NCBI GenBank assembly: GCA_025558095.1
Contig: JAIVFI010000012.1
Location: 496,001 to 560,000 of the forward strand
Direction: 5' to 3'
Length of the DNA: 64,000 nucleotides
Source of the DNA: Hyaloraphidium curvatum
Lineage: Eukaryota > Monoblepharomycota > Hyaloraphidiomycetes > Hyaloraphidiales > Hyaloraphidiaceae
Shown in pieces: positions 54,102 to 62,373 of this stretch. The position numbers and the translations under genes are program-made. The stretch's first letter is position 1. Every line of letters starts with the position of its first letter. A model generated the notes under the pieces. It searched no databases. It was not told the origin of the DNA and saw nothing but the letters and a program-made list of their open reading frames with translations.

Positions 54102-57095
54102 TTACCCGAACAGCGCATCCGAGATGGCCCCAAACCATCCCCGCTTCCTCTCCGCCGGTGCCGGCTCCGGCGCAGCTAATCCGTCCGCGATCGCAGGCTC
54201 CTGTTCTGCCGAGGATGCCGCAGGAGTAGCGGAGGGAGGGAAGGCGGCCGCGGGGGGCGTTCGGGGGGAGGGAATCGGGTCGATCGGCGCCAGCCGCGGG
54301 AGGCGGTCCAGCGGATCGTCTTCCGCCGCAGGAGGTTGCTCGGGAGCCGCGTCCTCCGTCGGCAGATCGGGAGCGGGATCCGAGTCCTCGGCTGCAGCTC
54401 CGGCTTCCGCGTCCGTGCCCTCCTGCGGCGAATCAACCGCTAGAGCCACTTCCGCCGCTTCAGCACCCTCGCCCTCCTCGACCTTGCCATCCGCAGGCGA
54501 TCCCGCTTCTCCAATCCCCGTCTCCTCGCCTGCTTCCTCTCCTTCCTGCGAAGCTCCCGGCTCCGCTGGCTGCGCATCCCCGTCCGATCGCCCGCCGTCG
54601 GTCTCCTCGGCCCCCTCGGCCGGCCCACTCCCGGCCTCTGCACCCATCTCGCTCCCTCGCTCCTCCGCCTGCACTTGCCCAGCACCTTCCCGCTCCCCAT
54701 TCACCTCCACAGCAGCCTGGTCCGCATCGTGCGCGCTCCGCTCGACGCTCGCCACCGCCGTCGCCCTCGCCAGCTCCCCCCACGACACCGCCCCGCGGCT
54801 GCGGGACGGTCCCGATCCGTCCGGCATGTCCACGGGGGTGTTGGGCGGCGTCGGCGGGGGGAAGTTCTCGGGATCGGGGGACGGAAGGAGGGAGGGCGCG
54901 GAGGGAGGGGCGAGGGAGGCTTCCGGTTCGGCCGTCGGGCTCGGCGCGGCGGGACCTGCGTCCACGGGTTCTTGTGCGACGGCCTCCGGTTCCGGCTCCG
55001 GTTCCGGCTCCTGTTCGGCTTCCTGCGCGGATTCCGGGGCCGCACCGCCCGCCTGCTCGTCAGCAGTCACCAGCGTCTCGTCGGCGCTCCCATCCTCGTC
55101 CGCCTTTGCCGCCGCCGCCACACCGCCTGCACCTTCCCCGGGTTCCTCGGCCGCCGCGCCCTGCCCGCCCGGATCCAACCACGCAACCTGCCCCGCCTTC
55201 TTCTTCTTCCCCTTGACCTTTCCCGCCGCCTGCAGCGACCTCGCCCGCGTCGCCTCCATCTCCGCCGTGTAGCTCGCCGCCACCGCCGGGTCCGCCAAGC
55301 GGAGCGACACCGTCCACGCGGGCCCGTTCCGCGCGATCGCCGCCACCCCGGCGGCCTCGGCGGCCTCGAGCATCGCCCCCGGCCGCGCGAACCCGTGCTT
55401 CCACCCCGCAAACTCGGGAGCCCGCAGCGCGGCCTCGACCGCGCGCAGGGGGACGCCCGTGCCCGTCGCCGACAGCGAGACGAGCATGCGCACGAGGGGG
55501 AGCCATTTCTCGGGCACGCCGCGCGGGCGGAGGAGCGAGGAGCGGGCGTCGGGGAGGCGGACGGCGGCGTCGAGGGTGCGGGGCGAGAACTGCGAGGTGC
55601 GGTCCAGGGGGGGGAGGTCCGCGGGTTCGAGGAGGACGGCGCCGCGGGCGCGCGCGGATTCGAGGTAGCTGTAGGCGCTCTCGAAGCCGAGCTGGTGCGA
55701 TTCGATCTGCAGTGGGCGGTGGGTGAGGCACTCGACGGATGGGGGCAACGAACGAACCAACCTCGAGGGAGGCGGCCAGCTTGCGCAATTTGAGCTTCTC
55801 CCCCGAGTTGGCAAAGGACAGCGACCAGTCCGCCAGCTTCCGCAGCACGGGCCAGTACGCCGTCTCGAACGCCTCCAGCAGCGGCACCACCGCCGCCACG
55901 TCCGCCGCCCTCCTCTGCGCGTTGGCGGCCAGTACCAGGTTCCCCGCCTCGGAGAGGCAGCACGCGTCCGCCTGCGGATCCCAATGCACCAGGCCCGTGC
56001 GCACGGCGAGGTCGAGGCACGGTTCCGGGTCGAGGCCGCACCGCCGGCACGCGCTGTGCAGCAGCGCGGTGCGGACAAAGGGGGCCTTGCCGCTCTGGCC
56101 GAGGCGGCGGAGTTCCCGGAGGAGGGGGACGAGCTTCTCGGGCGGGGGGATCGGGGAGGCCGGGAGGTCGGCGGCGGAGGGGGAGGCGTCGGCGGGTTGC
56201 GCCGACGGCGCGTCCGGGCTCGACGGGGAAAAGGAAAGGTCCGAGTACTCGAACACGGGGTCTGCCGCCTCGGTCGAAGATTCGACGAGGGCGGCGGGCG
56301 CCGGCGGCGCAGGAGTCTGCAGAAATTGCTGCTGGAAAAAGGCCGGCGACGGCGTGGCGGGCAGAGAAAGCGCATCCGTCCGCAGCCTGTCGCCGGGCGG
56401 CGGCGTCGGGGGTACCAGTACGGGCGTCGAGGATGGCGGGGTCCGCTCGACGAGGAGGTCGCTCCACAGCATGTGCTCCCTCACGGCGTGGATCAGGACC
56501 GGCGATACCTTGGCCGGGTGGATCAGGACCACGTCGTAGTGGGCGAATTCGAGGAAGTTCAGGATCTGCTTGTGAGGTGAGTTCGTTTGGATGACGTGTC
56601 AGCGTCGGAACCTCCACCCGCCTTTGAGAAGTCGCGATCTCCTGAAATCAAGAAGATGGTGTGCGGCGACCTCCAGAAATAGACCAGCTTGAGCATCTCG
56701 CCGAGGATCGCAATGTCGGACGCGCTTGGCTTCCCGCTCGAGACGGAGCAGAGCACGACACCGGACTCTTCAAGCTCGAGCTTGATAGAGGCCGGAACGC
56801 GGTCCAGGTTCGCAATGATGATGATCTGAAGAGAGCATCGAAGCCGGAGGTCCGCGTCAAGGCAGCCCCGAGTAAGACGCCCGACACCTCCCACGTTCGT
56901 CAGCACGACGTTCCGGTCCCGCGCCAGATCCTTGATCCTCCTGACCACCTCGTACCCCCGCGTCTGGGCCCCGCACGGGCAGTTCTCCAGGTCCCAGAAA
57001 ACGGTGCCCCGGCGAGGTTCCGGTCCCGCAGGAGCCGCGGGGCCCGCGGAACCGAAGCTCGCCGCGTGGCCGGGGAAGTCGGCCACCCGAGCCAT
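54102..57095 (-). CDS. NYN-domain protein (MARF1/limkain-like) with long acidic tail
   Basis: Starts MARVADFPGHAASF at 57095. The NYN (PIN-like) domain reads TVFWDLENCPCG, YEVVRRIKDLARDRNVVL, CSLQIIIIANLDRVP and TIFLISGDRDFSK; acidic residues in DLEN and SGDRDF are the expected metal-binding positions. The next exon continues as ILNFLEFAHYDVVLIHP, completing the fold, then a Pro/Ser-rich linker, then a helical segment (VPLLRELRRLGQSGKA to GLDPEPCLDLAVRTGLVHW) that may be a LOTUS-like module. The C-terminal 350 residues are low-complexity and acidic. MARF1-type proteins bind or cleave RNA. The junction after FSK lacks a GT donor in the right phase; a GC-AG intron would fit. Confidence 0.65.
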
Positions 57096-57755
57096 TCTCC
57101 CGGGAGCGACCCGCAAGCCTCGGCCGAGGCGGTGGAAGAGGTCTTTGATTTGTACACGCACAGGCGCCCAACACGACCCGGGGGATCAGCGTGAAGGCTC
57201 TGCGGGATCGATGTTTGGGCGGGTTGTCGCGCGCGCAGAGATGCGGTTCGCCACCTCGACTACTCCACGAATCGCAGGCAATCTCGGTCTATTTCTCGCA
57301 AGGATATCGTCTGGATTCATTTTCATTCGTGTCGCGGCTGGGCGGGGAGCTTCGGGCCGCGGAGACGCTCGGAATGGGCGTTGCTCGACCTGGCTTGCGC
57401 TGCACGATGCTAGTGGTCCAGCTAGGAGGACAGCACAGCAGGCACCTCCGCAGCGGTTACAGGGGCACTCTCATGGGTTGCCGTCCAGGATGCCCGCGTG
57501 GGGACGCTCGGTCGCGGTCACCGTGGACGCCGTCGTCGGCTGTCTCACAGGGACGACACGGCACGCGGCGTAGCTGTCGGGCGAGCAGTGATTAGCAAAT
57601 CCATGAATGAAAATCGACTGAATTGCATGGGTTGCGTTCTCTTGGGGGAGCACCTCGGGTGAATCATCACTCGACGCGCCGCGACATCAAAACACTCCAC
57701 AAGCCCCGCAAAGGAACGCGCGCAACCCAAGCAGGAAAAGCGCGGCCACGCGGCG
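57096..57755. other. Divergent intergenic region
   Basis: About 660 nt between the NYN gene (-) and the MYND-helicase gene (+). One plus frame stays open for about 134 codons (57191-57595), but its composition is not protein-like. No RNA gene or repeat is recognised; it probably holds both promoters. Confidence 0.4.
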
Positions 57756-60700
57756 ATGGCGTGCGCCCTGCCGAGCTGCAACCAGAAAGGCGCAAACACG
57801 TGCGGAACTTGCCGGAAGGTTTTCTACTGTTGGGTCTCCGTCCCTGTCGGCGACGTGTTCCATTAGCTGACCCCGGTGTCCCGCTTGCTGACCTCGACGC
57901 TTTCACGGTCGTGGTCACGACCGCCGCCCTCTTCACCGCTCGTCGGGATCCAGGCACGCGGGAGCACCAAATCGATGACTGGCCGCGCCACAAGCTCAAT
58001 TGCGTCGCACCGGTTCCTCGCAAGACCGGCACTGATGGCTATCCGGCCGAGGAGCTCGTGGTTCTCTTCCCGAAGCTCGACGAGGCAGGCTCCAACTTCA
58101 TGGACGTGTTGCCCCCGAACAAGGCCCGGAACCCCACGCACCTTCCGCTGCTCTTCCGCAGCGTGCTGGAGAGGGAGCAGCTCGCCCTCAAGGGCAAGGC
58201 GATCGTCGACCGGGCGACCTTCAAGCGGCAGTTCTCCGCTTTGACCTCCAACCTCTTCGACAGCTTCCCGGAGAAGCTGTGGGAAAACGTGCTGATTGCC
58301 GGCGGCAGCGTGCTTGCGGCCCTTCTGCCGCTCGACAACGGTTTCGCAAACCGGAGGTGGGCAGACCAAGCGCTTGCGTGCCGGAGAGGACAACCGATCG
58401 AGCGCATTGACTGATGTTGCTTTCAGGCCCCCTCTCACTGCCTCCCGCTACTATCACTACGACTTCCGTCCCCTCGGCTGGTCGGAGAAGCGCAAGTCGA
58501 TGCAGGATTTCATGCTGACGTGCCGGTGGCCGAGCGGCGACGTCGACATCTTCCTATACGGGCTCAAGGGGCAGCAGGCGACCTCCAAGATGATCGAGAT
58601 CTTCACCTTCCTCAAGAGCCGCTTCGTGGAGCTCTCTGGATCGAGCGAAGGCTCCGACTGCGTCTTCATAAAGACAGAGAATACGGTGACCATGGAGACG
58701 GGCAGCCCGCGGCGGAAAATCCAGGTCATCCTGCGCGAGTACAAATCGAAGGAAGAGGCCCTCAACGAGTTTGATCTGGACTGCGTCTGCGTGGGATACG
58801 ACGGGCGGGAGGTGCTCGCGACGCCGAGGTCCGTTACTTTGCTTTTTGGTGGAGTGATCCTCCATCTGACATTGTCTCCGTTCCACAGGGCTTTGAAGGC
58901 AATCTCGACCAGGGTCAACGTCGTGGACCTCTCCATCCGCGGAACCGCCTACGAATCTCGACTGCTGAAGTAGTGGGTCCGCATATCTCGATCGAGTTGC
59001 TTGCCTGGCTCACTCCGTGTTCTCGCAGCGCCGAGCGCGGATTTGCGGTTGCAATCCCCGGGCTCGATCTGTCCATGGTGGACAAGGGCCACCTCGTGCT
59101 CAAGCGGGAGCCGACGTACTGGAACAAGGACGAGGACGCGCTCACGAGCGATTCCTGGGACAGGTGGACGGAAGCGGAGAACCTGCTGCGGCTTCTCCTG
59201 GGCGACGCCATCGCCACCTCGGAGGGCTATATCGAGTTTCCGTTCCCCGGACGCATGAGACGCGCGCACGGCATGGAGGAGCGCATTGATTCTTGGTCGC
59301 TGCGGCTTTTCGACAACTACCCGGGAACCCGGCGCGGAGTTCGCGACTGGCCTGCAACGATGAAGCTCTCCGAGTTCCGTGCCGCCAAGGGCCCGTTTGC
59401 GATTTCCTGGAAGGAGGGCTCGATGCCCCGCCAGCCCCTGCCGTTCGACAAGTGGTCCGAGGGCTGCTTCAAGGGCAGCACGCGGCCTCTGACCTACAAG
59501 GAGTCGTGGAGGGAGAGGTTCGCCGCGCGGTCCAAGGACAAGAAGGAGGAGGCAGCCAAGCCAGCTTCCGCGGATCAGGCCGCCGAACCGCCCAAGCCCG
59601 CACGTGCGCCGACTCCGGACATCCCGGCCCCCGTCATTAGCCCGCGCGTGCTCGCAGCCGAGGCCTGGGTGGTGGCCTTCAAGACGCTGCTTCCCGAGGT
59701 GCGCGAGGCGTCGTCCGAGGCGGTCGCGGAGCTCTACCGGCGCCTCCACCCGTCGTCCGCTCTACCGGCCGTGAACTTGGCGTGGGAGAAGCTGGAAGAA
59801 TTCAAGGATTCCGAAGGAGGAGTTTCGCGAACTACACAGCGCGAGCCCGTGAAGCCCGTTGCCGCGGCTCGATCGATCGCGCCTTCGCGGCGCCGCGGGA
59901 CCGAACCGCGCGTCTGGCTTGCGAACCGCGTTTTCCGCGAGCTCAAAGAGCACGACGAGTCGCTGCTGAAGAAGCTGCAGGAGATCTTTGAGGACTCGCG
60001 CGGGATTTGGCAGGCTGGGAAGAAGGTCGCGGACGGCGTCTTCGAAGGCCGCCTGTCCGATCGCGCCAGGTTCTTTTTCCTCCAGCTGGACTCGGCTCCT
60101 CCGAGCTTCCTCGTGACTGCCGTGACGCTGACGCACAAGGGGATCAACAAGCTCATTACGCACAGCATGGAGCTGGCAAAGAAGGTTAGGGAGGCACCTG
60201 GGACCGCGATCGCCGAGGGACGTTCGGAGATGGACGCCGAGATCGCCGAGCATGCAAGGTTGACGCTGTCGGTGATGCGCTCGTTCCGGGAGGACGCCGG
60301 CAAGGTTTCGTGGTTCCTTCCTCGGCTCCATCTGGGCAACCTCGAGATGATCGTCGAGATCGGGCGGGACGGGACCGCCGTGCCTCTGCTTACGGAACAG
60401 GAGATGGAAGCTTTGGATATGGCATTGAAGCAGGGCTGTGTCGTTGTCGTCAAGGGCTCGGCGGGCAACGGGAAGACCACGGTGCTTGGCGAAATCGCAG
60501 CACAGGTCGACGGCTCGCTGCTATGTCTTCCGTCCGAGAGGCACAAGGCGCAGGTCTTGCGTACGTACCCGACCGTCAGGGCACTCACCGTGCGTGAACG
60601 TCTCGAGGAGATCTGGCCTCGGGATTGGCGGCGCGGTGGGCAGTTGTAGTTCAGCATTGCAGACTTTTCAGCTGACTCCTGAACCCAGTGACTTTCGCCG

Positions 60701-62373
60701 ACTTCATCGAGGCCAAGAAAGCCAAGCTCGAAAAATCCCCTGAGAGCTCGGTCAAGGCTGGCAAAGGCGCCAAGAAGCCGAAGGACAAAGCGTTGGACCC
60801 CCTTGCCGCATGGCGCGATCGCTTCTCCGACCCAGACTACTTTGCGTTCAAGGTTTGCGCTGCACCGCCTTTCGATGGAGATCGCTCATTGAGCGCGCTG
60901 CTCGTGAAGGCTTCGTCGGGACGCAAGGCCGAAGAGGACCTTTGGAACCACCTCGTCGAACAGTTTTCGAGCGGGCCTGCGGACGAGGTCAAGCGGAAGT
61001 TTGCTCCGACCTTGATCGATGAAGGGCAGTCCATGACGTCGACCGAGCTCAAGATCCTCGCGTTGGCCAGCGGATCGCCTCAGAATTGTGTCGTGGGAAT
61101 GGACTCGAAGCAGTCTGTTGGGAACGAGAGTGCAGGCCGCCGTGCCGCCGTCAAGAGCGCCATCTTCGCCGCCCTCCAGGCCGCGAACTACAGGAACCAA
61201 ATGGAGACGCACACCGTCGCGCTCACCGTCAACTTCCGCTGCCCCGTGGGCGTTCTGCGCGCTTTGCGAGGGATCATCGAGCGTTGGCTGAAGCCCTTCA
61301 AGGTTCTTGGTGTCGCGTCATCGCATGTTGATCCGCTGATCGTTCAATGCCCAGGACTTTGACGACTTCGCCGTCGACACCGTGGTTCGCTCCTCTCTCT
61401 GGGACTCGCCCCCGGTGTTTGTCACAACGAGCCTCGCGACGGTCAAGCAGTTGCTGGCTCGTCTTGCTATGCCAACCGTGGTCCTGCAGCCCGACGATCG
61501 CAAGGTTTCGGCCGACATGGACAGCCTCGGCCTCGTTCTGTCGATGTCTGGTTCGTGTAGCCAGCTGTCCTCTGTCGCGGACAGCGCTAACCGACATGCT
61601 GACCTAATCCCATAGAATGCCGGGGCCTCGAGTTCGACGAGCTCATTGTGCTTTCGAGTCCGCTCTCGGCCGGCACGATCAAGAGCTTCAAGGAAGCTGC
61701 GACGAACCTGCAGTCCGAGTCGTGGCGCAGCAACTCCGTGGAGGCACAGGCCGTCAAGGATACGCTGACGACTCTGATCGTGATGCTCACGCGGGCGAGG
61801 TTCGGAGTGATCTGGTTCGAGAAGGACCTGCATCATCCGCTCCTGGACGATCTCCGCGCGGGGGACGAGCCGTGCATCAGGGTCATCGAATCCGAATCCG
61901 ACGTCAACGATGCCGCCGCCCTCTTGTCCAAGGCGAGGAAGGACACCGTCGAAGACGACTCGAGCGCGAGCGGCTCCAGGTCGCTGACGAGCATGTTCTC
62001 TCGGGTCATGGAGGTGATCGTGGACTCGGTCGACGATTTCAAGCCGATCGACGGCCCCTGCGTGCAGGCAAAGAAACTAACTGATCGCATTCTCGACGTC
62101 GACTCCTCCGCCAAAGCCGGCGTCGGAAAAGCCCTCGATTCGCTTCCGGGCGCGGTTCTCGCCGCGCAGCTGCTCCGCGAGCCCACGGACAAGGACAAGC
62201 TTGCGATCCCGTTCTTCGGCGAGGTCCTCGGTGGCGCCTTCCTTGCGGCCATGGAAGCTCTGGATCCGCAACCGCCATCCGAGCCGTACACGCGCGTGGT
62301 CCGGGGGTGCGCTGATCTCTGCACCCGGCTCGGCCGTGCGGGGCAGGCGTCGCGGTTCGCGGCCAAGATCTGA
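57756..62373 (+). CDS. MYND finger / nucleotidyltransferase-like / SF1 helicase fusion protein
   Basis: Eight exons (57756-57828, 57954-58356, 58427-58828, 58889-58969, 59029-60635, 60689-61302, 61355-61550, 61616-62373) join in frame into 1,377 residues. Residues 3-42 form a MYND zinc finger: CALPSCNQKGANTCGTCRK, then FYCTREHQIDDWPRHKLNC. Residues about 120-320 have IAGGSVLAALLP followed by SGDVDIFLYGLKG, a GGS...DxD arrangement of nucleotidyltransferase folds. After a Pro/Ala/Lys-rich linker, residues about 795 to the end carry a UvrD/Rep-like SF1A helicase: Walker A KGSAGNGKTTV, Walker B LIDEGQSMTS, GMDSKQSV, VNFRCP, CRGLEFDELIVL and LTRARFGVIW. Similar helicases include vertebrate TRANK1. 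Whether the nucleotidyltransferase is active and what is processed are unknown. Confidence 0.78.

Follow-up and report, generated by a model that had tools for sequence, protein, structure and literature searches.

The window analysed here was the 64,000-nucleotide (nt) stretch at bases 496001-560000 of contig C12 of Hyaloraphidium curvatum (assembly of 31.9 Mb in 55 contigs). On its forward strand, positions 57756-62373 of the window very probably hold one nuclear gene for one four-domain protein, with a MYND finger, a nucleotidyltransferase (NTase)-fold domain of family PF26128, a RelE/YoeB-like domain and a UvrD-like helicase of superfamily 1 (SF1), followed by a helical C-terminal region. 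An earlier sequence-only reading had described it as a fusion of MYND, NTase and helicase parts in eight exons, and the deposited protein, P0001 (DFJ74DRAFT_56354), had 860 aa. The features of the gene were as follows, in window positions.

57762..58003, plus strand: MYND finger (Pfam zf-MYND), residues 3-41, split by intron 1
58157..59095, plus strand: NTase domain (PF26128), about residues 93-343, introns included
59909..60163, plus strand: probable RelE/YoeB-like domain, residues 615-699, on which the sequence-only reading was silent
60311..61845, plus strand: SF1 UvrD-like helicase core, residues 749-1184, introns included
57756..57828, plus strand: exon 1, start codon and first half of the MYND finger, with the same splice in deposited P0001
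57954..58356, plus strand: exon 2, second half of the MYND finger and start of the NTase domain (AGGSV, residues 140-144)
58427..58828, plus strand: exon 3, NTase core with D197 and D199 (DxD), Q258 and FDLD
58889..58972, plus strand: exon 4, 3' end corrected by the deposited P0001 splice (58969 in the earlier reading), K320-Y321 kept
59029..60635, plus strand: exon 5, end of the NTase domain, linker, RelE/YoeB-like domain, helicase Q motif, Walker A and Ia
60636..60688, plus strand: intron 5, 53 nt, read through in the deposited 860-aa protein
60689..60852, plus strand: exon 6, the first part of exon 6 of the earlier reading
60853..60909, plus strand: probable extra intron, 57 nt, GT-AG, in frame, from homology
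60910..61302, plus strand: exon 7, helicase motifs II (DEGQ), III and IV
61355..61550, plus strand: exon 8
61616..62373, plus strand: exon 9, helicase motifs V and VI, C-terminal helical region and stop

The eight exons first proposed, joined over GT-AG introns, spliced to 4,134 nt encoding 1,377 aa and a stop with no frame break. This frame stood except at the intron 4 donor and at 60853-60909, where an intron had probably been missed. In deposited P0001, intron 4 was cut at GTA^GTGGGT and Lys320-Tyr321 was kept; the earlier donor deleted both residues, which were invariant in PF26128 alignments of 9 and 10 sequences. The stretch 60853-60909 was an in-frame GT-AG segment of 57 nt, equal to 19 codons following 'FAFK', and its 19 residues were missing from all six relatives spanning that point (P0002-P0007). 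Its GC content of 0.60 was uninformative on intron versus exon (other introns, 0.48-0.66; coding sequence, 0.63). Homology thus points to a probable extra intron, whose removal gives nine exons, 4,080 nt and 1,359 aa. The 1,378-residue version of the protein uses the deposited intron 4 and retains the 19 extra residues. Because exon 2 by itself links the MYND finger to the NTase domain, and exon 5 by itself links the end of the NTase domain to Walker A, most of the fusion is independent of the splicing inference.

The first 856 residues of P0001 were identical to the window gene with intron 4 as deposited; P0001 then ran past the intron 5 donor and ended in '...WRRGGQL' at the TAG at 60647-60649. 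A product separating the MYND and NTase part from the helicase, which the sequence-only reading had named as contrary to the fusion, therefore exists as an annotation, but its stop lies within intron 5, which homology across the junction indicates to be spliced. On the near side of the junction (residues 631-856), identity to P0004, P0005, P0002 and P0003 was 46.6, 47.7, 44.2 and 43.1%; past it, the values were 42.7, 43.7, 42.1 and 41.7%. The environmental protein P0005 was collinear with residues 432-1367 in the 1,378-residue numbering (37% over 999 columns). Because homology crosses the junction and motifs II-VI are intact beyond it, we think that the intron 5 splice is real and that the deposited protein is truncated. 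It is quite unlikely that the main product is the 860-aa protein (MYND, NTase, RelE-like domain and a Walker A stub) made by retention of intron 5, with the helicase half a relic or minor isoform: the SF1 motifs past intron 5 were intact, identity to relatives was about equally high on either side, GC content at third codon positions was similar on both sides, and paralogous loci and environmental proteins continued across this point. Such a product would agree with the deposited length of P0001 and with a protein search by the helicase half, in which P0001 was the sole Hyaloraphidium protein among six matches (sizes of about 333-1058 aa could appear, and scoring was limited to the 7997 candidates with the most shared words); a 53-nt intron, however, would easily be overlooked by an automatic gene caller. 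The helicase half is missing from the public gene record, so the whole architecture is not present in the deposited protein.

The MYND finger passed PF01753 (zf-MYND) with 34.6 bits at a cut-off of 22.7, as expected from the earlier claim, and its best solved-structure match was SMYD2 (E 3.4e-5). All eight Cys/His ligands were there (C3, C8, C16, C19, C25, H29, H37 and C41), with a mild departure from the consensus, namely a first pair of C-x4-C and His29 as the sixth ligand. The Hyaloraphidium genome contained at least 150 MYND-finger matches above the cut-off, a large MYND expansion.

The PF26128 assignment was a precomputed database label on P0001. Alignment A1 of this family was made from 12 proteins minus P0016, P0018 and P0019, and the window protein had all 23 columns invariant in a nine-sequence PF26128 alignment, which it helped to define. 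The motifs GGS (141-143), D197 and D199 lay on a predicted NTase fold; label, motifs and fold together bore out the NTase-like region of the sequence-only reading, and structure prediction argued strongly for the NTase fold, which we read as being of the CCA-adding/FAM46 type. GG and DxD were retained in all 12 PF26128 proteins found and in a second Hyaloraphidium copy, with GGA instead of GGS in P0018, P0019 and that second copy; P0019 was without the KY segment. P0018 and P0019 were left out of alignments A2 and A5 (A2 was also without P0002, P0003, P0007 and P0008), and the A5 pieces were anchored on the AGGSV string, so the GGS invariance there was partly by choice. Q258 stood at the probable third carboxylate position, set by reading strand order without superposition, in 10/10 aligned members, and the left-out P0018 and P0019 also had Gln. 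In bacterial class II-type sequences this position held E or D in 12 of 13 and Gln in one. The window NTase differed from class II CCA-adding enzymes, bacterial poly(A) polymerase and FAM46 (TENT5) by Gln at the probable third acid, and no body or tail domains of these enzymes were recognised in the window protein. A profile search of the PDB gave no significant NTase match (best E 0.26), and Pfam analysis of ten PF26128 domains found Polbeta in three, not significantly (best E 0.084).

Two PF26128 loci were found in the Hyaloraphidium genome, the window gene and a TPR-linked gene at C3:459177-459677, where GGA replaced GGS. Eukaryotic PF26128 proteins with BTB, ankyrin, TPR or SDR fusions shared GG, DxD, Q, FDxD, DG and, where the segment was present, KY. 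In the other 11 PF26128 proteins found, this domain was accompanied by a BTB, ankyrin or SDR label or by no further label and, unlike in the window protein, by no MYND or helicase label. No described function was found for PF26128. Homology of residues 345-533 to the C-terminal tails of PF26128 proteins was rejected, as the best score of 1.7 bits was below the shuffled best of 6.3 bits (600 shuffles).

Among predicted viral proteins, 51 of 267 structural matches reached E 0.001 or better, with the matched model range assumed to be the NTase domain. The best 50 of these 51 included 42 from giant viruses; by name, 13 were ankyrin, BTB or VWFA proteins, and 4 were a CCA-adding enzyme or tRNA nucleotidyltransferase/poly(A) polymerase. 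These matches raise the reading that giant viruses share PF26128 by gene exchange and that the protein is a virus-conflict factor sensing or processing foreign RNA or DNA. We regard this as very unlikely, since PF26128 queries run against viral contigs gave no confirmed relative among 46, 50 and 1 stretches, the helicase scan gave none among 54, and PF26128 also occurs in ordinary cellular adaptor proteins. The empty scans of viral DNA are perhaps due to limited sensitivity. A part in genome defence, as proposed in the sequence-only reading, is putative.

The fourth domain was probably RelE/YoeB-like, with moderate support for the fold prediction. R662, R668 and H690 aligned with Arg59, Arg65 and His83 of YoeB, in a register taken from a non-significant alignment, and the R, R and H were present in six of six sequences. 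The domain differs from the RelE/YoeB/ParE toxins in being embedded in a large eukaryotic protein, in having no clear equivalent of Glu46, and in a sequence match to them that was not significant.

In the helicase, motifs Q, I, Ia and II-VI were all located. VIA-align of the helicase model placed UvrD as the best neighbour and UvrD, PcrA and Rep as the best group; the SF1 RNA helicases Upf1, Sen1 and nsp13 also scored well. The trimmed helicase scored 24.9 bits against Viral_helicase1 (cut-off 21), and the whole protein 18.8 bits, below the cut-off. Motifs IV and V lay just about 85 residues apart, unlike in UvrD/PcrA/Rep helicases. The C-terminal region was helical in the predicted structure of the homologue P0005. 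A profile search of the PDB gave no significant helicase match (best E 0.038), and among 115 pattern stretches examined for bacterial relatives, two matched, over the Walker A region only. A presumed likeness to human TRANK1, for which a literature search brought up nothing that seemed related, was not used.

Three further RelE-like-helicase loci were found in the genome (on C11, on C9 and at C12:584642-586563), together with a C-terminal fragment on C14. The paralogues P0002 (1847 aa) and P0003 (1816 aa) and the C12:584642-586563 locus also joined a RelE-like stretch to a helicase, and P0002 and P0003 showed about 36% identity to the window protein. P0002 passed the UvrD family PF00580 with 34.1 bits. 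Pfam found no MYND or NTase match in P0002 or P0003; their N-termini had IQ and TPR matches, with a zinc-finger match also in P0002, all under the cut-offs. Motif VI read TRC in the paralogues and TRAR in the window protein. An unrooted tree of nine sequences grouped the window helicase with the environmental P0004, P0005 and P0008, apart from P0002, P0003, P0006, P0007 and the third paralogue (ultrafast bootstrap 100); the fragments P0007 and P0008 were left out of alignment A4. This grouping suggests that the window form is an old branch rather than a recent duplicate; the tree covers the helicase only, and linkage to an NTase in the environmental genes is putative.

The third paralogue (C12:584642-586563, minus strand) lay about 26 kb past the fusion gene on the same contig. 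At C14:211556-212086, the match to the helicase family was confined to its C-terminal part, and this may be a broken copy. In P0003 (DFJ74DRAFT_532297), the last deposited intron began with GC and the C-terminus diverged from relatives after about residue 1736; this gene model may be wrong at its end. Less than 0.7 kb upstream of the fusion gene, a divergent gene on the minus strand (56559-57185) encoded an NYN domain (Pfam PF01936, 33.9 bits); NYN domains are often RNases.

The best overall explanation, held by us at about an even chance, was a four-domain protein acting as an RNA factor. RNA surveillance or RNA processing is a tentative first choice of mechanism, as RNA is what relatives of the NTase and RelE-like domains work on, and SF1 motors are used on RNA as well as on DNA. 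The protein would have RNA as its target, probably on ribosomes, on RNA 3' ends or close to either. The MYND finger would bring it to a partner protein, the helicase would travel along a strand and open it, and the RelE-like domain would hold or cleave RNA. The NTase domain would bind a 3' end or a nucleotide, and would add residues only if the Gln site is active.

Several results weigh against this explanation. The deposited protein stops at residue 860, and the splicing of the fusion is a sequence-based prediction. Both structure models were poor on average (mean predicted local distance difference test score, pLDDT, of 50.2 and 48.4), with block pLDDT of 28-55 in the RelE-like stretch. The profile-profile comparison with YoeB was not significant (E 0.22), and no equivalent of its general base Glu46 was found in the RelE-like domain. 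The probable third NTase acid is Gln throughout the PF26128 family. The hhalign comparison of the NTase with the class II CCA type covered the motif region only and was not significant (E 0.061), so the domain is treated as a fold look-alike and not as a member of the class II CCA-adding/poly(A) polymerase family. Foldseek gave no PDB match at E 0.001 for either the NTase or the helicase model; its first rows were FAM46C, the cyclase DncV, a TUTase and GLD-2 for the NTase, and mitofusin-1, before XPD and UvrD, for the helicase. PF00580 stayed below its cut-off of 23 (window protein, 16.4 bits; trimmed helicase, 20.3 bits). The UvrD/Rep-like helicase of the sequence-only reading was upheld in its SF1 motifs and its best VIA-align neighbour, and the helicase is called UvrD-like here, not a member of UvrD/Rep (SF1A).

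UvrD-type helicases are mostly DNA motors, which favours a role on DNA. The protein could then be a DNA-maintenance factor, in which a UvrD/Rep-type translocase works on DNA, the NTase and RelE-like domains are dead binding modules, and the MYND finger recruits chromatin partners. UvrD, PcrA and Rep as best neighbours of the helicase agree with this, as do the probable Gln at the third NTase acid, the GGA in 2 of 12 PF26128 proteins and the second genome copy, the RelE-like domain without a Glu46 equivalent, and the recruitment of nuclear partners by MYND fingers in known proteins. However, Upf1, Sen1 and nsp13 score well too, and the trimmed helicase exceeds the Viral_helicase1 cut-off. In addition, GG and DxD are kept in 12/12 PF26128 proteins and the second copy, which is unusual for a dead domain, and the RelE-like part has conserved its R, R and H. 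We consider this DNA role somewhat unlikely.

For the RNA factor, a single-polypeptide RNA-fate machine is an unlikely form, in which the helicase of the MYND-recruited protein would pass RNA on to a nuclease of RelE/YoeB-like type and to a 3'-end NTase of CCA/FAM46 type. If true, a eukaryotic protein would unite unwinding, cutting and tailing, and would belong to a family whose RelE-like-helicase core exchanges its N-terminal sensors.

A described system that combines these domains was met neither in protein searches, in which only candidates sharing most words were scored, nor in the open-access literature, in agreement with the earlier reading. Within the open-access literature, no paper joined MYND, nucleotidyltransferase, helicase and chytrid, and none joined Hyaloraphidium with MYND; subscription papers were outside this scope. 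The gene thus described presents known parts in a sound new combination, together with a broken public gene model, and is not a new kind of system. PF26128 occurs in diverse eukaryotes and, by predicted fold, in giant viruses. If the fusion is transcribed as predicted, its linkage suggests that PF26128 acts on nucleic acid alongside helicase and RelE-like domains, and makes the function of this family testable.
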